Source: Sneathiella sp. P13V-1 | GTDB taxonomy: Bacteria > Pseudomonadota > Alphaproteobacteria > Sneathiellales > Sneathiellaceae | Assembly: GCF_015143595.1 (NCBI RefSeq) | Contig: NZ_WYEU01000003.1 | Coordinates: 372,001 to 436,000 of the forward strand | Length of the DNA stretch: 64,000 nucleotides | Reading direction: 5' to 3' | Shown here: one piece after another, positions 33,228-47,354 of the stretch | How positions within the stretch are numbered: the first letter of the stretch is position 1 | How the letters are laid out: each line of letters opens with the position of its first letter | Notes under the pieces: model-generated | What the model saw: only the letters and a program-made list of their open reading frames with translations | What the model was told of the DNA's origin: nothing | Databases searched by the model: none | Made by a program: the position numbers and the translations under genes

Positions 33228-35984
33228 TTATTCACCTGCAATTGCAGTAGTATTCTGTTCTGGGATAGGAACAGTAAACATAAAGCGCGCACCGCCTTTT
33301 GACATGTTTTCGACCCAGATTTCACCACCTAAATAGGTGACAATCTGACGACAGATAGCAAGCCCAAGCCCTGACCCTTGTGGCTTCGCCCCACTAATAC
33401 CAACACTTTGATGAAAGCGTTCAAAAATTTTCTCTTTAAGCGGAGCAGGAACTCCCAGACCGTTATCTTCCACGGAAACAAGCACGCTACCTTGATCACT
33501 TCTAACCTTCAGCCAGATTTTTCCTCCAGATGGATCACAGAATTTAACCGCATTGGAAATCAAGTTGATTACGACTTGAATTAATTGATCTCTATCCGCG
33601 TGAACAGTTGGCAGAAAATCCGGTATATCAAGGAACAACTCAATCTTATGCTCTGTCACCAGGCCCTGCAGCGCTTTCACACCATCTTTAATGGCATCCG
33701 CCACATCGACTTCTTCCAGTGACCAATCCATTCGCCCTGCTTCCATTTTGGCCAAGTCCAGCAATTGATCAATAAGTCGGGTAAGGCGGTCACTTTCCGT
33801 GATTATCACACCCAAGAATTGATCCCGCTCTTCGCTACTGACCCCAGGGTTATCCTGTAGAATCTCACCAAACGCCTTCAAACTTGTTAGAGGAGTACGC
33901 AGTTCATGGCTCACCATGGATAAGAAATCATCTTTCAGGCTGTCCAGTTCCTGAAGGCGGGTGTTTGCCATTTGAAGTTGATCTGTAGCAGCTTGAAGTG
34001 CCGCAGATTTCTGCTCAAGTTCATGGCTATATTCGATGACCTGACTGGTCTCATCCAAAATACGATACACCTCGTCAAGACTAACGATTTCACCCTTAAC
34101 GATGGATCCAATCAGAACGCGTGCCGTCGCAGAACCAATCGAGCCGGCAAGCAACCGTTCCGCATATTCCAATAGCGCTGAATCCACACTCTGCCCTTTT
34201 CGAAGTACGAGATCATTTTCAGATGCGTATTTTTCAAAAGCCTCTTCAACACGCCGCACACCAACAAACCGGCCAACAAGCGCCTGTAGCTCTCCAACTG
34301 TTGCGGTGCCGCGCCAATAACTGCTGTCACTTCCCCGTTCGGTCAGACGGAAGACATCAACAAACAATTTGGCTTGAATGCGTTCAATGGCTGCCTGTTG
34401 AGTGAGCAACGACACCACCCAGTAGCTACCGATATTGGCGACCATGCTCCAGAACAAAGCATGGGTTAAGCGATCAAATCCTTCCATCCCAAATAGAGAG
34501 TAAGGCTTGAGCCACTCTATTCCAAAAGGACCGTGACTGATAAAGCTAAAGGGTAGCCAACCGGATTGCGCAAGCGATGGTAGGAACAAAGTATACATCC
34601 ACACCGCAAACCCCATCAAAAGCCCTACCAAAGCCCCTTTAAAAGTCGCATTCTGCCAGAAAATACCGCCGATAATAGCTGGCGCGAACTGAGCAGCACC
34701 GGCAAATGATACTAGACCAATGGTTACAAGCGAGTAGCTTTCACTTGCGAAACGGTAGTATCCATATCCCAAGATCAAAATAAGGAAAATACTGGTTCGG
34801 CGGATCGCCAGCAGAAGACCGGTGAGGTCTTCTTGCTGCCTTACCTGAAACCAGCGGGATCTAAGAACAAGTGGCATGATCAAATCATTGCAGACCATTG
34901 TCGCCAGAGCGATCGCAGCCACAATCACCATGGAAGTTGCCGCGGATAACCCTCCGATAAAGGCAATCAATGATATCATCCCATGGTCATAGTAAAGCGG
35001 TAGTGTCAGTACAAACATGTCAGCGTCGACCGGTGTGCTGGCAAAAGCCAAACGTCCTCCAAGTGCAATTGGAAGGACGAAGATATTAATGATCAGCAGA
35101 TAGGCCGGGAACAACCATGCGGCCTTACGAAGATACTCTTCTTCCGCGTTCTCGACTGCGGTAATGTAGAACTGCCGCGGCAAACAGACAATCGCCGCCA
35201 TTGAGAGCAACGTCATGGTCACCCACAAACTATACCCCTCACCATCACTGATGGTGAAAAGCGATTGAAGTGCCGGATCGACAAAGGCACGTTCAAAAAT
35301 ATCCCCAAATCCATCAAAAATACCATAGGTAACAAAGATACCAACGGTTAAGAACGCCACCAGCTTCACAAGACTTTCAAAGGCAATGGCTGCGACAAGG
35401 CCTTCATGATGCTCACTTGCATCGATATGCCGGGTTCCAAAAAGGATCGAAAACAACGCAAGGGCAATCGCGACAATCAATGTGGTATCCATAAAGAAAA
35501 TAGGGTCCGCAGGAATTTCAGGCACCCTGCCCCCGCCAGATGACGTCACCAAAATACGGAAACTTGTCGCAATGGACTTAAGCTGAAGTGAAATATACGG
35601 CATCGTACCAATCACCGCGATGATGGTGACCAAACCGCCAATAGACGCTCGTTTGCCATAACGGGAAGAGACGAAGTCTGCGATTGAAGTGATGCGATGC
35701 TGTTTGCAGATCCGAATAATTTTAATCCAGATGAAAGGCCAGAAGACAAAAACGAGGGTTGGCCCTAAATAAATCGGCAGGAAATCAAGGCCGGTGGTCG
35801 CGGCCCGCCCCACACTTCCATAAAACGTCCAGGACGTACAAAAAACAGCAATGGATAAGGTATAAACATAAGGATTACGGGACATGAGACGCCTGATGCC
35901 CGCGCGATTATCCACATAATGGGCAATGGCAAACAAGAGGCCCAAATAAAGAAAAGAGACGGTGAGAACAACACTACTTGGCAT
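33228..35984 (-). CDS. CbrA-like sodium:solute symporter-histidine kinase fusion
   Basis: 918-aa membrane sensor. Residues 1-520 form a sodium:solute symporter (SSS) module with about 13 helices (SRNPYVYTLSIAVFCTSWTFYGSVG at the N-terminus is typical). Residues 555-645 resemble the STAC linker domain of such sensors. A coiled coil (about 645-685), HisKA with H693 in MVSHELRTPL and an HATPase domain (about 790-910, NLISNAVKF, DNGLGV, GSGLGLAI) follow. Unlike Pseudomonas CbrA, I see no PAS domain. It is the third gene of an operon with a receiver-only protein and a two-helix protein (gaps of three to five bases), and should couple substrate transport or occupancy to phosphorylation. Confidence 0.93.
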   Translation of the reverse strand: MPSSVVLTVSFLYLGLLFAIAHYVDNRAGIRRLMSRNPYVYTLSIAVFCTSWTFYGSVGRAATTGLDFLPIYLGPTLVFVFWPFIWIKIIRICKQHRITSIADFVSSRYGKRASIGGLVTIIAVIGTMPYISLQLKSIATSFRILVTSSGGGRVPEIPADPIFFMDTTLIVAIALALFSILFGTRHIDASEHHEGLVAAIAFESLVKLVAFLTVGIFVTYGIFDGFGDIFERAFVDPALQSLFTISDGEGYSLWVTMTLLSMAAIVCLPRQFYITAVENAEEEYLRKAAWLFPAYLLIINIFVLPIALGGRLAFASTPVDADMFVLTLPLYYDHGMISLIAFIGGLSAATSMVIVAAIALATMVCNDLIMPLVLRSRWFQVRQQEDLTGLLLAIRRTSIFLILILGYGYYRFASESYSLVTIGLVSFAGAAQFAPAIIGGIFWQNATFKGALVGLLMGFAVWMYTLFLPSLAQSGWLPFSFISHGPFGIEWLKPYSLFGMEGFDRLTHALFWSMVANIGSYWVVSLLTQQAAIERIQAKLFVDVFRLTERGSDSSYWRGTATVGELQALVGRFVGVRRVEEAFEKYASENDLVLRKGQSVDSALLEYAERLLAGSIGSATARVLIGSIVKGEIVSLDEVYRILDETSQVIEYSHELEQKSAALQAATDQLQMANTRLQELDSLKDDFLSMVSHELRTPLTSLKAFGEILQDNPGVSSEERDQFLGVIITESDRLTRLIDQLLDLAKMEAGRMDWSLEEVDVADAIKDGVKALQGLVTEHKIELFLDIPDFLPTVHADRDQLIQVVINLISNAVKFCDPSGGKIWLKVRSDQGSVLVSVEDNGLGVPAPLKEKIFERFHQSVGISGAKPQGSGLGLAICRQIVTYLGGEIWVENMSKGGARFMFTVPIPEQNTTAIAGE

Positions 35985-36217: not shown

Positions 36218-36601
36218 TTACCCTACTTGACCTTCCATCCCGACCAGACGCTTCACGGCCTCTCCAAGATTTCTCGTGGAGAACGGTTTTGTCATGAACT
36301 CATCTGCCCCCAAAGCAATAGCTTTCTCTCTATCCGCATCCCGACTTTTCGCCGAAAGCATGATAATCTTTAAATTCTGACAAGCCGGGTTTCGCCGGAT
36401 TTGTTCACATACCGAAAATCCATCCTGTTTCGGCAACATGATATCCAGCAGAACAATATCTGGAACATAATCCTCGATAGCTCTCAGTGCCTGCTCTCCG
36501 TCAGAGGCAACCCGGACCGCAAAGCCCAACTGCCTCATAATAAACTGAAGCGACAGCACGATGTTTGGCTCATCTTCTACAACAAGTGCAGTATATGACA
36601 T
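36218..36601 (-). CDS. single-domain response regulator
   Basis: 127-aa CheY-like receiver with no output domain. The acidic pocket is E9-D10, the phospho-acceptor D53 (LLDIMLP), the switch residue S83 (a serine in place of the commoner threonine, MLSAKS) and the invariant lysine K105 (MTKPF). The start is the ATG at 36601 with GGGAGGG ten bases upstream; a longer reading adds 30 basic residues and is unlikely. It heads the operon with the two-helix protein and the CbrA-like kinase, so it is the natural phospho-acceptor of that kinase. With no DNA-binding domain, the output must be protein-protein contact or phosphorelay. Confidence 0.92.
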   Translation of the reverse strand: MSYTALVVEDEPNIVLSLQFIMRQLGFAVRVASDGEQALRAIEDYVPDIVLLDIMLPKQDGFSVCEQIRRNPACQNLKIIMLSAKSRDADREKAIALGADEFMTKPFSTRNLGEAVKRLVGMEGQVG

Positions 36602-36742
36602 TCGGCCGCGACCCTCCCACCTGGCACGACGATGACGGCTTGCCTCCCCAATTTGTTTTCTCTTTGGAAAATAAGGCAAAACAGCCAACACACAACATCA
36701 GTCAAGTCTAACGCACTTTAGACCCTCTTGTCATGTAACAAA

Positions 36743-36790: not shown

Positions 36791-38731
36791 TTATCGGTTC
36801 ATCCGGTTTTCGATAAGCTCATCAACGACCGCAGGTTCCGCTAACGTGGATGTATCACCAAGGCTGCCATAATCATTTTCGGCAATTTTGCGAAGAATTC
36901 GTCGCATGATCTTTCCAGACCGTGTTTTTGGAAGACCTGGCGCCCATTGAATAAGATCAGGTGAGGCAATCGGACCAATTTCGTGACGGACCCATTTCAC
37001 CAGGTCTTTGCGAAGATCATCTGAAGGTTCGACACCTGCATTCAAAGTGACATAAGCGTAAATGCCCTGCCCCTTAATGTCATGAGGATAGCCCACAACA
37101 GCAGCTTCTGACACATTTTCATGCGCCACAAGCGCGCTTTCGACTTCAGCCGTCCCCATTCTGTGACCGGAGACATTGATCACATCATCGACACGACCGG
37201 TGATCCAGTAATACCCATCGGCATCACGGCGCGCGCCATCACCTGAGAAATAACGTCCCTTGAAGTTAGAGAAGTAAGTCTGGATAAACCGTTCATGGTC
37301 GCCATAAACGGTCCGCATCTGACCTGGCCAGCTATCCTTGATGCAAAGAACGCCTTCACATTCACCTTCCAGGACATTGCCATCATTATCCACCATCAAA
37401 GGCTCGACACCAAAGAAGGGGCGTGTTGCGGATCCTGGTTTCAGGTCGGTAGCGCCGGGAAGCGGTGTGATCAGAATACCGCCAGTTTCCGTCTGCCACC
37501 ATGTATCCACAATCTGGCAACGACCGTCACCCACAACATCATGATACCAGCGCCAGGCTTCCGGATTGATCGGCTCCCCAACAGACCCCAGAAGGCGCAA
37601 AGACTTACGTGAAGTGGACTTAACAGGATCATCCCCCGCTTGCATCAACGCACGGATCGCCGTTGGCGCCGTATAGAAGATGTTTACATTGTGCTTGTCA
37701 CACACATCCCAGAAACGGGACATGGTTGGATAGTTCGGCACCCCTTCAAACATCAGGGTTGTCGCACCATTTGCAAGCGGTCCATACAGAATATAGCTGT
37801 GGCCGGTCACCCAACCCACATCAGCGGTACACCAGTAGATATCACCGTCATGATAATCAAACACATACTGATGGGTCATGGACGCATAAACGATATAACC
37901 ACCACATGTATGCATCACACCTTTTGGCTGACCAGTGGAGCCGGAAGTATAGAGAATAAACAGTGGATCTTCGGCGTTCATTTCTTCCGGAGCGCAATCT
38001 TCAGAAGCTTCGGCCATCGCTTCGTGATACCACACATCACGACCTTCAACCCAGTTGATGTCATTACCGGTATGCTTCACCACAATACATTTCACATCTT
38101 TCCCGCTGTGGTCGATGCCTTCATCCGTATTGGCTTTAAGTGGGATCAGACGGCCACCGCGGATACCTTCATCTGCCGTAATCACACAGTTACTGTCACA
38201 GTCAGAAATACGCCCCGCCAAAGCCTCAGGCGAGAAACCACCAAACACAACGGAGTGAACCGCACCAATCCGCGCACAAGCCAGCATGGCAACAGCCGCT
38301 TCTACGATCATCGGCAGATAAATGGTGACACGGTCGCCTTTTTTAACGCCTTGCGCCTTCAAAACATTGGAGAATTTACAAACCAGCTTATGGAGCTCTC
38401 TATAAGTGAGCTTCATATCCTGATCAGGTTCATCCCCTTCCCAGATAATCGCTGTTTGATCACCGCGTGTTTCCAAATGGCGGTCGATACAGTTGGCACT
38501 GACGTTCAACGTACCGTCATAGAACCATTTAATGTGAAGATCTTCAGCATCGAAAGAAACATCTTTGACCTTTGTGTAAGGTTTTATCCAGTCAACGCGC
38601 TTACCATGTTCTCCCCAGAACGCTTCTGGATCCTTGATGGAGGCGTCATACATTTCCTGATATTTCGCATTATCCACCCACGCGGATTTCGCCAGCTCTT
38701 CCGGTACCGGATAGACTTCTCTGTCAGACAT
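36791..38731 (-). CDS. acsA: acetyl-CoA synthetase
   Basis: 646-aa AMP-forming acetate-CoA ligase, full length. Visible landmarks are the adenylation P-loop [21 protein letters not shown], the [10 protein letters not shown] hinge region and the C-terminal [11 protein letters not shown], whose Lys is the reversibly acetylated catalytic residue in this family. Close relatives use acetate and, more weakly, propionate. It has its own terminator downstream and a 163-base upstream gap containing the livF terminator, so it is probably a single-gene unit. The neighbouring CbrA-like sensor and ScfR-like regulator suggest control by acetate or short-chain acids. Confidence 0.96.
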
Positions 38732-38894: not shown

Positions 38895-39611
38895 TCAGAT
38901 TGCCAGGTATTCGTGACGCAATTCCTGATCTTCCAGAACTTCTTTTGCAGTTCCGCGGAAGGCAATCTTACCCATATCCAAAATCAGCGCCTTGTCAGCA
39001 AGCTGCAAGGCCGCCACAGCGTTTTGCTCCACAATAACCGTCGTGATGCCGAGCTTTTTAACTTCCATCAGAATACGCTCAATCTCTTCAACGATAACTG
39101 GCGCCAGACCCTCATATGGCTCATCCAAGAACAGAATCTTGATGTCCCGGGCCAAGGCACGCGCCACTGCAAGCATCTGCTGTTCACCACCAGACATAGT
39201 GGTCGCTTCCTGATTCCGACGTTCGCCCAAACGTGGAAAGTGATCATAAATTTTCTCAAGGGACCAACCGATTGGCTCTGCCACCTGTGACAGGATCAGA
39301 TTTTCTTCCACGGTGAGGCCGCCAATGATACGGCGATCTTCCGGCACAAGCTGAATACCCGCTTGCGCCGCTTCGTGGGATTTCATCTCGTGGACTGCTT
39401 GGCCATTAAGATAGATTTCCCCTTGGGTGAGCATTGGCTCATCTACGCGGGCCAACGCTCTAAGTGTCGAAGTCTTACCCGCTCCGTTACGTCCAAGAAG
39501 GGCAACAATCTCGCCTTCTTCAACGTCGAAAGAAACGCCTTGTACAATGTAGGATTCGCCATAATAAGCGTGAATATCACGAACACTGAAAAATGAACTA
39601 TCACCGGACAT
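38895..39611 (-). CDS. livF: branched-chain-type ABC importer ATPase (LivF)
   Basis: 238-aa ATPase of the HAAT (hydrophobic amino acid) family. Walker A is GRNGAGKTS, the signature MSGGEQQML and Walker B ILFLDEPYEGLAP, where EPYEGLAP is typical of LivF. It overlaps the livG stop by one base (TGATG). Last gene of the operon, followed by a terminator. The symbol is by family; the transported compound may not be a branched-chain amino acid. Confidence 0.93.
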   Translation of the reverse strand: MSGDSSFFSVRDIHAYYGESYIVQGVSFDVEEGEIVALLGRNGAGKTSTLRALARVDEPMLTQGEIYLNGQAVHEMKSHEAAQAGIQLVPEDRRIIGGLTVEENLILSQVAEPIGWSLEKIYDHFPRLGERRNQEATTMSGGEQQMLAVARALARDIKILFLDEPYEGLAPVIVEEIERILMEVKKLGITTVIVEQNAVAALQLADKALILDMGKIAFRGTAKEVLEDQELRHEYLAI

Positions 39612-40369
39612 CAGTGTGCTCCTCCCAAATATGCTTCTTTCACCTTCTGGTCCTCACGAACCTCTTCAGGTTTACCACTTGTAATAATTCGCCCGCGCGC
39701 GAGCACACTCACTTTATCCGCCAAACTGAACACCACATGCATGTCGTGCTCAATAATGACTTTCGTCATACCCCGGCTTTTGATCTTCTTCAAAAGGTCA
39801 ATGGTACGGTTCGTATCATGACGAGACATACCAGCTGTCGGTTCATCCAGAAGAAGAAGTCTTGGGCGCAGGATCAGACACATGCCAAGCTCAAGACGAC
39901 GCTTATCACCACGTGACAGGCTCCCCGCTTCTTGCATCATCAGATCCTGCAACCCAACATCCTCAAGAATGTGTTCTGCTTCATCACGGATCTCGCCTTG
40001 CTTAGACAGCAGTCGATGAGCGTTCATCGCGAAGGCACCATCCCGCCGGGAGAAGGCAGGTAGCATAACATTTTCAAGCAGTGACATTTCCGGAAAGATC
40101 TCCGGTGTCTGGAAAACCCGGGCCACACCGATCTGTGCGATCTCATGTGGTTTGCGCCCCGTCAATTCCTGCCCATCAAAAGTTACATGCCCCGCATCTG
40201 GCTTCAAACGACCAATACACACATTCAACAGAGTAGATTTACCAGCACCGTTTGGACCAATAATCGCGTGTGTCGTCCCTTCTTCAACATGAAGGTTCAC
40301 ATCAGACAACGCACTCAATCCACCGAAGCTCTTCTGAATATTATCCAGGTGAAGAACCAAATCATTCAT
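39611..40369 (-). CDS. livG: branched-chain-type ABC importer ATPase (LivG)
   Basis: 252-aa ATPase with Walker A GPNGAGKST, signature LSRGDKRRLELG and Walker B LLLLDEPTAGMS, plus the LivG-type C-terminus (GRIITSGKPEEVREDQKVKEAYLG). The signature reads LSRGD, not LSGGQ, as in amide/urea-type relatives. It pairs with LivF to drive the LivH-LivM channel. The gap to the livM stop is 11 bases. Confidence 0.93.
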   Translation of the reverse strand: MNDLVLHLDNIQKSFGGLSALSDVNLHVEEGTTHAIIGPNGAGKSTLLNVCIGRLKPDAGHVTFDGQELTGRKPHEIAQIGVARVFQTPEIFPEMSLLENVMLPAFSRRDGAFAMNAHRLLSKQGEIRDEAEHILEDVGLQDLMMQEAGSLSRGDKRRLELGMCLILRPRLLLLDEPTAGMSRHDTNRTIDLLKKIKSRGMTKVIIEHDMHVVFSLADKVSVLARGRIITSGKPEEVREDQKVKEAYLGGAH

Positions 40370-40380
40370 CTTAACACTCC

Positions 40381-41538
40381 TTATTCACCTGGTTGATCTT
40401 GTGGGGAGACAGACCCACCAATATCTTTGTCTTCTTCTTTACGTTTCAGCAGATTACCGAGACGCGACATACCTTCAACGATACCGCCCGGTAGGAAGAT
40501 CACGATCACAACAAACAGAAGACCCAATGTCAGATGCCAACCACTACCTACGAACAGGCCAATTATTGGAACAATGACATCAGCTACCGCATCTGGAAGG
40601 AATGAGAAAATCTCTGCCAGTGTCTGATTATTGAAGGCTGAGAAGATATTTTCAAAATATTTGATCAGACCTGCACCCAACATAGGACCAGCAAGTGTTC
40701 CAACACCGCCAAGGATTGTCATCAGAACAACCTCACCAGATGCCGTCCACTGCATGCGTTCCGCACCTGCAAGCGGATCAGTAACAGCAAGAAGAGATCC
40801 TGCAAGACCCGCATACATGCCTGAGATCACAAAAGCTGTGAGCATGTAAGGGCGCGTATTAAGGCCCGTATACATCATACGGTTCTGATTGGATTTGATA
40901 CCACGAAGCATCAAACCGAACGGAGATCTAAAGATCCGCATGGAAATATAGAAACAAATGATCAAAACAACAGCACAGAAATAGAAACCTTCGAAACCAC
41001 TCATCTTAATACCGAACAGATTTGTGGAAGGCAGACCCGCGCCGGCTTCAATGAACAGGCTATCGATGATCCGTGGGTCCTGCTGAGACAACTGCAGCCC
41101 AGTTTCACCATTTGTAACAGGTGTCAGCACTGAGTAGGCCAAGTTATAGGACATCTGCGCAAACGCGAGTGTCAGGATAGAGAAGTAAATACCACTCCTG
41201 CGAAGAGACAGGAAGCCAATGATAAAAGCCAGCAGTCCAGCAAATAGAACACCGAAGAAAATGGCAGGTAGCGCATTCATGGTGAAAAGTTTGAAGGACC
41301 AAACCGCTGCGTATGAACCCACACCCAAAAATGCGGCATGTCCAAATGACAGGTATCCTGTCAGGCCAAAGAGAATATTAAATCCAATTGCAAAAATACC
41401 GTAGATAGCGAATTTTTGCAGAAGGTCAGGATAGCTACCGCCCAATGGAATCATCCAAAGAGGCATCAACAGAATGACAGCGGCAAAAATCAAAAACCGA
41501 TGAGTGTCGTTTAAATTAGCGAAATTCATATCAGTCAT
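40381..41538 (-). CDS. livM: branched-chain-type ABC importer permease (LivM)
   Basis: 385-aa permease with about ten hydrophobic helices. The LivM motifs are [27 protein letters not shown] and [22 protein letters not shown] ([18 protein letters not shown]). A periplasmic insertion near residues 130-160 and a charged C-terminal tail ([10 protein letters not shown]) are additional. It overlaps livH by eight bases, so translation is coupled. Confidence 0.93.
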
Positions 41539-42547
41539 CCATCACGCCTGCACGGCCCATCAGACCACGAGGCAACACAAGTAGAATAATTACAGCAACC
41601 AGATAGATAATGACCTGGTCAATACCTGGTATGATGGCTTTCACCTCTGTCATGGACGCGAAGGATTGCACGATACCCAGAAGGAAGCCGGCAAGTACCG
41701 CCCCGCCGAGAGAGCCCATCCCCCCCACAACAACAACAACGAAGGAAAGCACGAGGAAGTCCATACCCATATGATAATCAGGTGGAAGAATTGGAGTGTA
41801 CATCACACCAGCAAGACCCGCGACCACTGTCGCCATGGCAAATACAATGGTGAAACGACGCTGAATATTAATTCCTAAAAGACCAACGGTTTCACGATCC
41901 CGCATCCCTGCACGAACAACCATGCCATAGGTGGTGAATTGCAGGAACGAAAATACTGCGAAAATAACCAACCCAGAGAACAGTAGGTAAATAATACGCC
42001 ACCAAGGGTAGACAACACTTTCACCAAGCCCAAGCCAGGCACCGACATTGGCACTACCTGACACAATGTCAGGGGCACTTTGCGGGATTGGGTTCGCACC
42101 AAACACTGCCTTGATAATTTCTTGAATCACAATCGCCAGACCAAATGTCACAAGAATCTGTTCCGCATGTGGGCGCTTGTAGAAATACTTGATAAGTCCA
42201 CGCTCCATGGCATAGCCCAGCAAAATCATCACAGGTATTGCCATGAGAATGGAAATTGGAACGGCATAATCCAGAATGACCGGCCCCGCATCAGGGAACC
42301 AGATTTCAAGATAAGGCTGTTCTTTATAGGCCTTGAACAAAGTAACGCTTGTATCTTCCACTTTGGTGGAGAGCATCAGTAACTTGTTGAAGGAAACGGC
42401 ACAAAACGCCCCTAACATAAACAGGGCGCCATGCGCGAAGTTCACAATACCAAGGGTACCAAAAACAAGTGTCAGCCCAAGCGCGATCAACGCATAGGCG
42501 GCTCCCTTGTCCAGACCGTTCAGTATTTGCAGAAAGATTGCATCCAT
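41531..42547 (-). CDS. livH: branched-chain-type ABC importer permease (LivH)
   Basis: 338-aa permease, with the typical start [39 protein letters not shown] and the C-terminal [21 protein letters not shown]. An insertion of about 40 polar residues after the second helix ([27 protein letters not shown]) is longer than in E. coli LivH and should face the periplasm. The gene lies 121 bases downstream of the binding-protein gene; that gap carries a terminator-like hairpin. Confidence 0.92.
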
Positions 42548-42614
42548 ATCACTAAAACCTTGAGGGATCGGCTACCAAAAATTGGCTCCGGTGCATCTGA
42601 AAAATAAAACTTAA

Positions 42615-42656
42615 GAAAAAGGACGGGCGGGAACTCCGCAGCGCTCACCGCCCGTC
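42615..42656 (-). terminator. intercistronic terminator/attenuator between binding-protein and livH genes
   Basis: On the minus strand a perfect 9-base stem, GACGGGCGG with CCGCCCGTC (42648-42656 and 42622-42630), with a 17-base loop is followed by CTTTTTC. It lies inside the operon, so partial termination would give the binding protein more mRNA than the permeases and ATPases, as is common in such importers. Confidence 0.7.
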
Positions 42657-42668
42657 AATAAACGACTG

Positions 42669-44015
42669 TTAGACTTTGTAAGGGCCGAGTTCCCCGCCAA
42701 AGATTTTCCAGTCGTACTCCACTTGCGCCCGAGGAGTCTGCTCTACCACTTTCAAGAGGTCGAACTGACTTGTTGGGTTGTCGTTACCGCGCACAACCAG
42801 AACATCTTTGAAGCACTGGTGATCTTCTGCACGATAGAGGGTAGGACCGTTGCCCATACCGTCGAACTCAAACCCTTCAAGGGACTTAATAACTTCTGGC
42901 GGATAGAATGTACCTGCCATTTCACAGGCATTTGCATAAAGCAGTGTCTGTACGTAACAAGTGTGGGCAGCCATTGAAGGTGGTGCACCATATTCCGCAC
43001 CAAATGACTTAACAAAAGCCTGGGAGCCTGCATCCTGCAAGGACCAGTTCCAGTTTGTTGTACCAAGGATACCTTTAATCGCTTCACCAGCACCCTGCGC
43101 CATAAGACGAGAGAACAGCGGTACAACGATTTCAAAGTTTTTGCCATTGACCTGCTTCTCACGTAGACCGAACTGAACAGCCTGGCTGAGAGAGTTGATC
43201 ATGTCTTTACCGTAGTGGTTCAGGATCAGGACATCAGCACCGGAGTTCAGAACTGGCGTGATATACTGAGAGAAGTCACCGGCACCAACTGGTGTACGAA
43301 CTGTGGAAACTGTTTCCCAGCCCAGCTCTTCAGTGGTGTTTTTAATGGATTCTTCCTGTGTCCAACCCCAGTTATAGTCGGCTGTGAGGTGGTAAGCACG
43401 GCGTTCCTTGCCATATTCTTTTTCAAGCACAGGGCCCAGGGCACGACCGGACATGTAGGCATTGAAGAAGTGACGGAAGCCATAACGGCGTTTGTCTTTA
43501 CCTGTAGTATCGTTGGAGTGCGTCAGACCCGCCATAAAGATAACACCTTCTTCTTGGCAGAGAGACTGAACGGCCACAGCCACACCGGAGGAAGAACCGC
43601 CGGAGATCATCAATACATTTTCTTTTTCAATCAAACGCTTCGCAGAAGAACGTGCGGCATCTGATTTGGTCTGTGTGTCACCTGTTGCATAAGTGACTTT
43701 CTTACCCAGAACACCATTGCCTTTCAGCATTGAAGGCTTGAAAGTGTTGAGCATTCCGCCGTCACCTTCACCGTTCAGGTGCTTCACGGCCAGTTTAAAG
43801 GCACGCAACTCATCTTTACCCTCTTCAGAGTAAGGACCTGTTTGCGGCACGTTAAAGCCGAATTTGATTTCTGAAGCATTTCCTGGATTGTTCCGGAACT
43901 CTTCAGCCCATGCATTTCTCATGAAGAATGCTGGGGATGACGCCACTAAACCTGTCGCCGCTCCTGCTTTGAGCAGACCCCGGCGTGAAAAGTCGAACTT
44001 GCTGTCTTTAGTCAT
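42669..44015 (-). CDS. Tat-exported ABC substrate-binding protein (type I, Liv-like)
   Basis: 448-aa periplasmic binding protein of the leucine-binding (Peripla_BP_6) fold. The twin-arginine signal is FSRRGLLKAGAATGLV with cleavage after AWA. The mature domain starts NASEIKFGFNVPQTGPYSEEG. The start is the ATG at 44015, with GGAGGAAAC five bases upstream; a longer reading adds 17 unlikely residues. Tat export implies folding before transport, sometimes seen in this family. The ligand is unknown; next to acsA and an ScfR-like regulator, a short-chain acid, amide or amino acid is plausible. It is divergent from that regulator. Confidence 0.92.
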   Translation of the reverse strand: MTKDSKFDFSRRGLLKAGAATGLVASSPAFFMRNAWAEEFRNNPGNASEIKFGFNVPQTGPYSEEGKDELRAFKLAVKHLNGEGDGGMLNTFKPSMLKGNGVLGKKVTYATGDTQTKSDAARSSAKRLIEKENVLMISGGSSSGVAVAVQSLCQEEGVIFMAGLTHSNDTTGKDKRRYGFRHFFNAYMSGRALGPVLEKEYGKERRAYHLTADYNWGWTQEESIKNTTEELGWETVSTVRTPVGAGDFSQYITPVLNSGADVLILNHYGKDMINSLSQAVQFGLREKQVNGKNFEIVVPLFSRLMAQGAGEAIKGILGTTNWNWSLQDAGSQAFVKSFGAEYGAPPSMAAHTCYVQTLLYANACEMAGTFYPPEVIKSLEGFEFDGMGNGPTLYRAEDHQCFKDVLVVRGNDNPTSQFDLLKVVEQTPRAQVEYDWKIFGGELGPYKV

Positions 44016-44093
44016 AGTTTCCTCCCACTTGTTATTCCGTAGGCCATCGCTGTTTGCAGAAGGCACGGCCCATACACCCTGATGTATTGGGAC

Positions 44094-44108
44094 TGTAAAA
44101 TTTTCACA
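44094..44108. promoter_or_regulatory. near-perfect palindrome in ABC operon/ScfR-like divergent promoter
   Basis: TGTAAAATTTTCACA pairs at six of seven positions around its centre. It lies in the 189-base gap between the binding-protein gene and the ScfR-like regulator, 79 bases upstream of the former. It shares TGTAAA with three direct repeats just before the regulator's start and could be an operator of that regulator. Confidence 0.35.
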
Positions 44109-44178: not shown

Positions 44179-44202
44179 TGTAAACTTGTAAAAGATTGTA
44201 AA
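44179..44202 (+). promoter_or_regulatory. three TGTAAA direct repeats before ScfR-like regulator
   Basis: TGTAAA occurs at 44179, 44187 and 44197, ending two bases before the regulator ATG, where a Shine-Dalgarno sequence would be expected and none is visible. The repeats may be an autoregulatory binding site that also blocks initiation. Confidence 0.35.
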
Positions 44203-44204
44203 AA

Positions 44205-45821
44205 ATGGCCAGAACACCGTTTATGGGATCCCGGTTGAGGCGGTTACGCAAAGACAAGCAATTAACCCAGACAGATCTGGCCGGAATGCTGGGCATATCC
44301 ACCAGCTACCTCAATTTAATTGAGCATGACAGACGTGATTTGACTGTCCCCATTCTATTGAAACTCAGTCAGATTCTTAACGTAGATCCCATGTCTTTTG
44401 CATCGAATCAGGACGGGCAACTTCTGGCGGAAGTCACCGAAGCCTTGCATGATCCTCTTTTCGCCGAAGACGAATATGCGGAAGATTCACTCTCCAATTT
44501 CACATCTGACCAACCCGAATTTGCCCGCCTGCTTGTAAAACTGTATCAATCTTACAAACTGGCGACGGGTGATCTGCAAATGCTTCGCGAGAGGCTTTCT
44601 CAGGATTCTTTGCTGGCGGAATCCTCTTTCCGCCTAAGAACCCTCGTGACGTCCATATTCTCTTTAACGGAAATTATGCACGATAACGCTGACCTTGATG
44701 AAGCGGAACGCCAACGGTTCTTGGATATCGTTTTAAAAGACAGCACATCTCTGACTGACACGGTCAATGAAATGCTCGGCTTTGTTGGGGGGGATCATTT
44801 GTCGGGAAAAGAACTAACCCCCTCCCCTTTTGAGGCTGTCACTGATTTTGTTCAGGCCAACAACAACTATTTTGAAGACATTGAACGCGCCGCTGAAGAA
44901 ATACGTCATGAAATAGGTGAAGACAGCCCAAACCTGATGGAGCTCAGCAACTATCTTCAAAACTGCCTTGATGTTGCAATCGAATATGCTCCGCAAGAAC
45001 ATAGCGATCATGAAATCACACTCTATGATGACAAAAGACGCAAGCTCACTTTGTCAAAAGCCCTCCCCCCCTCAACAGTGAAATTCCATATGGCCCTGCT
45101 TATTGGTCAACTAAAATTCACCTCTCTTTTTGACGACCTAATTAAAGGCAGACAAGAACTTGTAACAGATCAGGCGCAAACCAAAGCTCGGGATGCGTTG
45201 ACCAACTATTTTGCCGGAGCGTGCCTGTTCCCTTATGACCTTTTCCATGAAGCGGCAGAACGTGTCCGCTATGACATTGAAGTTCTGCAACAGCAGTTTG
45301 GTGCAAGTTATGAGCAAATATGCCACCGCCTAACCACACTTCAAAAACCGGAAAAAAGTGGGATCCCTTTCCACCTCATCAGAAGCGATGTGGCAGGAAA
45401 TATCTCCAAGAGATTTAGCGCATCGGGCCTTCGCATTCCACGCTATGGTACTGCCTGCCCAAGATGGGTTGTCCATGCAGCACTGATGACCCCAAATTCG
45501 ATTTGCACGCAGATCTCCGAGTTACCTGACGGATCACAGTTTTTTGCGATTGCCAAAACCGTCACTAAACCCAGCATGGGGTACAACCAACCGAAACGAC
45601 ACTACGCCATCAGCCTTGGCTGTGCGCTAAATCAGGCCCACAGGTTGGTTTACGCGGACAACATAAATCTGACCAACCCGAAAAGCGTGATGCCTGTTGG
45701 CATAACATGCCGATTATGTGATCGGGAAAACTGTGGTCATCGCGCGGCTCCGACCCCTTCCCAGAACAGAAGCCAGAACAAGGGACCACGGAACATCTCT
45801 CCGGGGATTGGAGATTGGTAA
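44205..45821 (+). CDS. ScfR-like XRE regulator with a degenerate histidine-kinase DHp insertion
   Basis: 538-aa regulator. Domains in order are an XRE helix-turn-helix (residues 9-65, TQTDLAGMLGISTSYLNLIEHDRR); a helical hairpin (about 135-192) closely resembling a HisKA dimerisation domain, with S-F142-RLRTLVTSI where kinases have S-H-ELRTPLTSI; an ImmA-like middle region without an HExxH motif; and the ScfR/DUF2083 C-terminal part (FHLIRSDVAGNISKRFSASG, CPRWVVHAA, CRLCDRENCGHR). Relatives (ScfR, RamB) sense short-chain acyl-CoA and control acetate, propionate or glyoxylate genes. I recall the usual length as about 470 aa, so the hairpin accounts for the excess. It faces the ABC operon divergently and lies near acsA. 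Confidence 0.88.
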   Translation: MARTPFMGSRLRRLRKDKQLTQTDLAGMLGISTSYLNLIEHDRRDLTVPILLKLSQILNVDPMSFASNQDGQLLAEVTEALHDPLFAEDEYAEDSLSNFTSDQPEFARLLVKLYQSYKLATGDLQMLRERLSQDSLLAESSFRLRTLVTSIFSLTEIMHDNADLDEAERQRFLDIVLKDSTSLTDTVNEMLGFVGGDHLSGKELTPSPFEAVTDFVQANNNYFEDIERAAEEIRHEIGEDSPNLMELSNYLQNCLDVAIEYAPQEHSDHEITLYDDKRRKLTLSKALPPSTVKFHMALLIGQLKFTSLFDDLIKGRQELVTDQAQTKARDALTNYFAGACLFPYDLFHEAAERVRYDIEVLQQQFGASYEQICHRLTTLQKPEKSGIPFHLIRSDVAGNISKRFSASGLRIPRYGTACPRWVVHAALMTPNSICTQISELPDGSQFFAIAKTVTKPSMGYNQPKRHYAISLGCALNQAHRLVYADNINLTNPKSVMPVGITCRLCDRENCGHRAAPTPSQNRSQNKGPRNISPGIGDW

Positions 45822-46459: not shown

Positions 46460-47263
46460 CTATGCCGACACCTGCATTTCGACCGCGCTCGCACCTTCCA
46501 GAAAATGCTTCTGATAGCGGTCTGTGATATTGCTGGTTTCCACCAACAGGCAGACATCTACCGTATTGAAATCCGCATCAATCACGGCACCATCTCCAAT
46601 AACACCACCCACCCGAAGATACCCCTTTATCAAGGCTGGCATCTCGCGCATGGCCTGGCGCATATCAACACGATCTTCTTCCAGCAAGTGCATATCAACA
46701 TAACGCTCGGCTTGCGCCTTTGGCTGCCAGTCGGACGGCGCCTTGTGATAGAGACTGAGGTAAGAGAGTGCCGATGCCATTTGATCCATATCTGTTCCGG
46801 GGAAACTGGCACACCCAAACATCAAGGAGATATCATGCTCCATAATGTAATCCGCAATACCCCGCCACAGAAGCTGCATGATAGCCTTTCCGCGATATTC
46901 CGGGTCCACACAGGATCGCCCAAGTTCAACATGCTCGCCGCTGTATTCTTTTAGGCGGCTCAGGTCAAACTCATCTGCTGAATAGTAGCCCTGATGCCGT
47001 TCGGCCACTGATTTTCTAAGAAGGCGGTATGTCCCCACAACACAAATACCATTTTCGTCACCGCGCGATTGATCAATCACCAACAGATGATCACAGTAAT
47101 CATCAAACGCATCAAAATCGCGTTTAAGAAGTTGGACGGAAGGGGATGGTTTTGCTCCCATTCCTTCATAGAACACTTGATACCGAAGTTCCTGTGCCTT
47201 GATCACCTCTGCCTTGCTACGTGCCAATCTGATCACAAGATCGGTTGAACGAGAAATACCCAT
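46460..47263 (-). CDS. olsB: OlsB-like ornithine-acyl[acyl carrier protein] N-acyltransferase
   Basis: 267-aa GNAT-superfamily acyltransferase predicted to add a 3-hydroxyacyl chain to the amino group of ornithine, the first step of ornithine-lipid synthesis. Family-typical stretches are QELRYQVFYEGMGAKPS, DYCDHLLVID, VELGRSCVDPEYRGKAIMQLLWRGIADYI, LMFGCASFPGTD and LIKGYLRVGGVIGDGAVIDADFNTVDVCLL. The ATG at 47263 follows GGAGAAG; a longer reading adds 25 unlikely residues. No olsA is seen next to it. In rhizobia olsB is induced by phosphate starvation; here it is divergent from phoX with a PHO-box-like site in between. Confidence 0.85.
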   Translation of the reverse strand: MGISRSTDLVIRLARSKAEVIKAQELRYQVFYEGMGAKPSPSVQLLKRDFDAFDDYCDHLLVIDQSRGDENGICVVGTYRLLRKSVAERHQGYYSADEFDLSRLKEYSGEHVELGRSCVDPEYRGKAIMQLLWRGIADYIMEHDISLMFGCASFPGTDMDQMASALSYLSLYHKAPSDWQPKAQAERYVDMHLLEEDRVDMRQAMREMPALIKGYLRVGGVIGDGAVIDADFNTVDVCLLVETSNITDRYQKHFLEGASAVEMQVSA

Positions 47264-47354
47264 AACGCTTCTCCATCCTAGAGATATAACTTTGGATCGT
47301 TGAGAACCTATGGACCGCAAAGGGCAGTTTCTTGGCATTTGAATGAATATTTGG

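Follow-up and report, generated by a model that had tools for sequence, protein, structure and literature searches.

A kinase-type DHp hairpin within an ScfR-type regulator of Sneathiella and its proposed contact with a lone receiver

The regulator and its locus

The window, that is, the whole stretch of 64,000 nucleotides of Sneathiella sp. P13V-1 that was analyzed, carries a gene for an ScfR-type regulator with an inserted hairpin of the kinase DHp (HisKA) type, together with the genes and candidate operator sites listed below.

33228..35984, minus strand: sensor kinase of 918 aa, presumably CbrA/SLC5-type, with HisKA at 684-750 (His693) and an ATPase domain at 797-908; within this genome, its DHp is the one most closely related to the insert
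36218..36601, minus strand: lone receiver of 127 aa, its start placed at Met31 of the listed ORF 36218-36691; phospho-Asp53, Lys105
36791..38731, minus strand: acetate-CoA ligase (acs)
38895..44066, minus strand: ABC importer of the urea/branched-chain type, with two ATPases, two permeases and a binding protein; oriented divergently to the regulator
44094..44108, no strand assigned: candidate operator TGTAAAATTTTCACA, an imperfect palindrome
44179..44202, plus strand: candidate operator of three TGTAAA repeats just ahead of the regulator start codon
44205..45821, plus strand: ScfR-type regulator of 538 aa with the inserted DHp hairpin, identified by domain matches and Fe-S cysteines
44607..44783, plus strand: DHp hairpin, regulator residues 135-193, in which the Phe142 codon (44628-44630) replaces that of the phospho-acceptor His

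Domain searches of the regulator detected an HTH_3 domain at the N-terminus (residues 11-62) and a Peptidase_M78-like (IrrE/M78-like) domain at residues 254-377, and the ScfRs domain (PF09856) was matched at residues 378-523 with 189.4 bits, above the curated cut-off of 24, which places the protein among the ScfRs. Cys418, Cys502, Cys505 and Cys510 were invariant across alignment A2, and the last three form the C-X2-C-X4-C arrangement given as the Fe-S cysteine motif of ScfR regulators in PMC6765138. The regulator scored 407.1 bits with the RamB equivalog model NF038139, below the NCBIfam cut-off of 700, and no HATPase (CA domain) match was found in it at E ≤ 10. Judged by its domains and cysteine motif, the protein is an ScfR, and neither a RamB equivalog nor a histidine kinase.

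The PrpR structures aligned with residues 205-517 of the regulator (E 3e-74), and a weak alignment to PrpR, of 11 bits and not significant alone, was also obtained for residues 59-135. The stretch between these two parts comprises 69 residues in the regulator versus five in PrpR, and the hairpin segment is thus an insertion in a PrpR/RamB-like protein. A weak ParG-like match was also noted at residues 146-190. Downstream of the regulator, positions 46460-47338 of the window (minus strand) encode an OlsB-like ornithine N-acyltransferase, with 294 bits for a cut-off of 320.

The start codon of the receiver was picked by comparison with homologues. The first half of the kinase matched PDB entry 10ed_A, named 'histidine kinase' (E 3e-66 for the whole match), and the counterpart in Paracoccus bears the annotation 'sodium:solute symporter'; a Pfam scan of the kinase found no transporter domain. 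From this match and this annotation, we take the kinase to be probably of the CbrA/SLC5 type.

Each of the candidate operators lying between the regulator and the divergent importer was found in 19 of the 22 Sneathiella upstream regions, the pattern of the TGTAAA repeats having been derived from the site at 44179..44202 itself. The RamB/PrpR operator sequence TTTGCAAA was rejected as a candidate: it occurred four times in the window, as by chance, was absent from this intergenic region, and was present in 3 of 48 surveyed divergent regions.

Homology of the hairpin to kinase DHp domains

The first-pass annotation had aligned residues 135-192 by eye with a HisKA domain, with Phe142 at the phospho-acceptor position and no ATPase domain, and both of these last points were correct. 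With the single regulator sequence, the Pfam HisKA model matched residues 143-192 at 17.2 bits, below the curated cut-off of 26.9, with an E-value of 0.0056 for the whole regulator and of 6.4e-4 for a 100-aa fragment. In alignment A1, 11 of the 14 rows matched the same model at E ≤ 0.05, the best of them at 1.1e-8, and none of five plain ScfRs used as a control matched it at E ≤ 1; ordinary ScfRs lack the segment. Profile comparisons with hhalign settled the homology. The 22 Sneathiella hairpins aligned with 41 DHp domains of linked kinases over 59 columns with a probability of 98.6% (E 5.7e-16), and with the 47 other HisKA domains of the window's genome with 95.6% (E 1.2e-8). For 47 non-Sneathiella rows, these values were 99.6% (E 8.8e-24) and 97.3%, respectively.

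Structure prediction placed two helices where they were expected, with low to medium confidence. In the AlphaFold2 model of the full-length protein, helices were predicted at residues 142-159 and 166-192, where the pLDDT was low (about 34-55); in a model of the segment, they extended over residues 135-160 and 166-196 (pLDDT about 59-74). The top four Foldseek matches of the segment model in the PDB were histidine kinases, none of them significant (best E 0.56).

A search of the genome with the whole regulator returned a single kinase at E ≤ 0.001, the one encoded in the cluster itself, over residues 100-193. When the 48 HisKA domains of the genome were ranked, the linked kinase came first with the Sneathiella hairpin profile (37.3 bits; next 16.1), with the non-Sneathiella profile (53.6; next 23.9) and with the single regulator sequence (30.3; next 17.4). 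By these scores, the hairpin specifically resembles the DHp of the linked kinase, which leads by 13-30 bits. A chance coiled coil is ruled out by this best match, together with the family-row HisKA matches, the hhalign results and the plain-ScfR control. Residues 135-193 are, on this sequence evidence, a true HisKA/DHp hairpin, homologous to kinase DHp domains.

Occurrence, gene order and phospho-acceptor residues

A profile of regulator residues 8-235 was used to search 387 sampled alphaproteobacterial genomes. The matches listed fell into two classes of ScfR: in 53 genomes the match was full-length (E ≤ 6e-63), and the others mostly ended at position 112-133. The full-length linked kinase was found in 64 of the 387 genomes, including all 53 with a hairpin-bearing ScfR (hereafter DHp-ScfR; Fisher p 9e-55, uncorrected for kinship); the 11 others had the kinase without a DHp-ScfR. 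In this sample of 387, the architecture was thus confined to genomes with the linked kinase. A phylum sample of 397 genomes, for which the composition is not given, contained 41 with a DHp-ScfR, every one from this class. Five plasmid records also matched, and the three that were read (one Neorhizobium, two Paracoccus) all had the histidine. The hairpin-bearing regulator is therefore more widespread than first noticed, and its presence in many genomes of the class rules out an oddity of one genome or assembly. No description of a DHp within an ScfR was found in the literature searched, at the level of titles and abstract beginnings.

The lone receiver and the kinase, the proposed partners, are conserved neighbours of the regulator across the class. 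In the commonest arrangement, the regulator gene is followed by the receiver and then the kinase, with the ABC importer running divergently; this importer is conserved beside most DHp-ScfRs. In 38 of 45 His-bearing cases, the receiver gene comes immediately after that of the regulator and in the same orientation; this number comprises 36 cases from the main count, G193, and the split gene of G371, counted by its second piece. In G371 (L125), the ScfR gene is divided between an ORF of 281 aa and one of 212 aa, which may represent a broken gene or an assembly error. The receiver was 0.7-4.1 kb away in five His-bearing cases (G031, G095, G084, G312, and G253) and, in G209, on another contig with acs and the kinase. 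No receiver was found in the stretch read from G096 (L118), where regulator and kinase are adjacent, 270 bases apart. In G025, the regulator and the kinase lie on different contigs, and each has a receiver beside it. Among the receivers scoring above 75 bits with that of the window, the phospho-Asp, the acid pair and the Lys were intact in 50 of 50.

Hairpins were read from all 53 sampled genomes with a DHp-ScfR (6 Sneathiella, 46 others, and G193), from G024, and from 16 further Sneathiella genomes. Phe occupied the His position in 22 of 22 Sneathiella rows and in none of the 48 others, 45 of which kept the His; G340 has Tyr, and G131 and G218 have Gln. On a tree built by a quick method, two losses of His were needed, one in Sneathiella with G340 (support 82) and one in G131/G218. 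By this tree, the His-less state is derived and had no fewer than two origins, with Phe or Tyr in one and Gln in the other. As to a single origin of the DHp-ScfRs, the same tree needed two changes, and a branch with support 84 placed plain ScfRs among them, so that one gain of the DHp plus one loss is possible. The receiver was never adjacent in the His-less cases read: it was 9.6 kb away in all six Sneathiella loci measured, and in G340, G131, and G218 it adjoined the kinase on a contig other than that of the regulator. As these cases amount to two lineages, a link between loss of His and loss of receiver adjacency is suggestive only.

In HisKA domains, the acid at +1 from the His serves autophosphorylation, and the residue at +4 serves dephosphorylation. 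All 49 aligned linked kinases had His, Glu+1, Arg+3, Thr+4, Pro+5, and Phe+12. Among the 44 His-bearing ScfR hairpins, Glu+1 was present in 9, Arg+3 in 1 (Leu+3 in 40), and Pro+5 in none, and T/S/N+4 was found in 44, Ser+11 in 42, and Ile+15 in 44. Given these roles, the lost residues would fit a loss of kinase activity, and the kept ones would face a receiver. The His was within the five least variable hairpin columns outside Sneathiella. G340 has Asp at +4. Sneathiella has F-R-L-R-T here, with Arg+3, Thr+7, and T/S/N+4 in 22 of 22 rows each, and Leu or Ser at +12 versus Phe in all 49 linked kinases.

In 20 Sneathiella rows, the box at residues 139-151 was 95% identical, compared with 75% for the hairpin, 77% for the HTH, 78% for the ScfRs domain, and 39-54% for the linkers beside the hairpin (39% just behind the box). 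The box ranked 9th among 526 windows of 13 residues, behind two other regions. Few parts of the protein are better conserved, which points to strong constraint on the His-less box.

Proposed receiver docking and alternative explanations

Several known systems share parts of this arrangement. The ScfR/IsaR acyl-CoA regulators PrpR, RamB, PccR, and MccR have the same HTH, IrrE-like, and ScfRs domains and the C-X2-C-X4-C motif, but PrpR has five residues where the regulator has the 69-residue stretch with the DHp. Pden_1785 of Paracoccus denitrificans probably belongs to the same subfamily as the DHp-ScfRs. It is the closest case met in the literature searched: a single sentence of PMC10370305 mentions it in passing as an ScfR member with a gene clustered with a two-component system, and the consulted part of that paper reports no DHp. 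CbrA/CbrB and CrbS/CrbR likewise have a transporter-type sensor kinase, and CrbS/CrbR controls acs; in these systems, however, the partner regulators carry the receiver, whereas in the present one the receiver stands alone and the DHp is part of the DNA-binding protein. Spo0B and ChpT are phosphotransfer proteins in which a DHp-type hairpin is used with receivers without autophosphorylation. The His-bearing regulators may use theirs in the same way, although Spo0B and ChpT lack a DNA-binding or ligand-sensing domain.

The closest parallel to the Sneathiella form is DivL, the pseudo-histidine kinase with which Caulobacter senses DivK~P. According to PMC4211667, R553 (+3) and T557 (+7) of DivL are needed for DivK~P binding, and replacement of Tyr550 by His leaves binding intact. 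Both proteins have a DHp with an aromatic residue for the His and with Arg+3 and Thr+7 kept (22 of 22 Sneathiella rows), and the expected partner of the regulator is also a lone receiver; the residue at +12 differs. DivL keeps PAS and ATPase domains and does not bind DNA, whereas the regulator lacks this PAS-DHp-CA architecture and has a DHp alone inside an ScfR. Receiver binding has been demonstrated for DivL and is proposed here for the regulator. Leu+3 in 40 of 44 His-bearing hairpins indicates that their docking face would differ from that of DivL.

We consider it likely that the hairpin is a receiver-docking port of an acyl-CoA sensing regulator, used for docking alone in Sneathiella and perhaps for phosphotransfer where the His remains; the contact with the receiver and the flow of signal are what we infer. 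An acyl-CoA sensing DNA-binding protein would have acquired a kinase DHp hairpin by insertion. The membrane kinase would phosphorylate the lone receiver, and the phosphorylated receiver would bind the regulator's DHp as if binding a kinase. Phosphorylated receiver and bound acyl-CoA would then together set DNA binding at the promoters of the ABC importer and acs. Regulators that keep the His may either accept the phosphoryl group or serve as the site of its removal; in Sneathiella, Phe142 would leave only docking, comparable to that of DivK~P on DivL. The homology to the linked-kinase DHp, the full co-occurrence with the kinase, the receiver adjacency, the intact receivers, the kept His and +4 residues, the strong constraint on the His-less Sneathiella box, and Arg+3/Thr+7 in Sneathiella argue for such a port. 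Leu+3, the Sneathiella +12 residue, G096 with no receiver found and G025 with two, the 11 genomes that have the kinase but lack a DHp-ScfR, and the weak structure models argue against it.

The first-pass annotation had proposed a DHp recruited as a dimerization or docking element; this is supported overall, and neither of the outcomes named as refuting it was obtained, since a two-helix hairpin is predicted with low to medium confidence and the segment is missing from ordinary ScfRs. Mere dimerization became less likely, as most relatives keep the His (45 of 48). That the hairpin is only a dimerization or spacer element, making no contact with two-component proteins, would agree with the tendency of DHp hairpins to dimerize, with an insertion between DNA-binding and sensor domains, and with the fact that the His can be lost. 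We nevertheless regard this as unlikely in view of the invariable co-occurrence with the kinase, the adjoining receiver gene in most His-bearing cases, and the conservation of His and T/S/N+4, neither of which is needed for dimerizing.

That the hairpin pairs directly with the linked kinase's DHp, or is phosphorylated by the ATPase domain of that kinase, is still less probable. RetS and GacS provide the model for such pairing, and both the closeness of the insert to the DHp of this very kinase and the receiver-less G096, with regulator and kinase adjacent, are in agreement with it. However, the usual gene order has the receiver between regulator and kinase, and the kinase is a membrane protein.

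The retention of T/S/N+4 in all His-bearing and Sneathiella rows, with the +1 acid not kept and Pro+5 lost, could also indicate that the DHp chiefly dephosphorylates the receiver or acts as a phosphate sink for it, control of DNA binding being secondary. We give this little credence, since a sink needs no fusion to a DNA-binding protein and G340 has Asp+4. It is likewise very improbable that the Sneathiella hairpin is a functionless relic of a lost phosphorelay, even if the His was lost twice, each time with a non-adjacent receiver gene, since the box is far better conserved than the linker just behind it and receiver and kinase are intact.

The receiver-docking port may be part of a broader scheme, plausible but somewhat short of probable, in which a transporter-type kinase, a free receiver, and then a phosphoryl or docking signal into a DHp-bearing acyl-CoA regulator would form a three-part signalling class of Alphaproteobacteria, with the regulator phosphorylated on His through the receiver in most lineages and the His-less forms only docked. 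The usual two-component arrangement places the receiver on the DNA-binding protein. This regulator instead bears a docking domain that belongs to the kinase half, which could allow a metabolite sensor and a membrane sensor to converge on a single protein. A receiver plugging into the regulator, if true, would reverse the usual wiring, and would give such lone receivers an output. The natural His-bearing and His-less versions let phosphotransfer and docking be told apart.

Other proteins with a DHp were found beside the same kinase and receiver. A 69-aa ORF of G400 (L108:15782-15988, plus strand) consists of little but a DHp (HisKA 33.7 bits), and a 189-aa ORF of G024 (L040:5998-6564, minus strand) has a HisKA hairpin (29.2 bits), both over the Pfam cut-off. 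By eye, both align with Asp at the His place; both lack an ATPase domain and lie near the same kinase cluster. For nine of the 11 kinase genomes without a DHp-ScfR, the neighbourhood was read, and in four of these the interval between receiver and kinase encodes a protein of about 700 aa, part of which weakly resembles a DHp:

L140:10855-12981 (G357), L141:6164-8263, L145:11936-14011, and L147:6151-8226 (the other genomes being G323, G143, and G296): positions of these four proteins

These proteins suggest that the hairpin may be a general plug for one receiver. The protein of G357, the only one scanned, has PAS, a weak HisKA match (E 0.004), and an RNase_T exonuclease domain.
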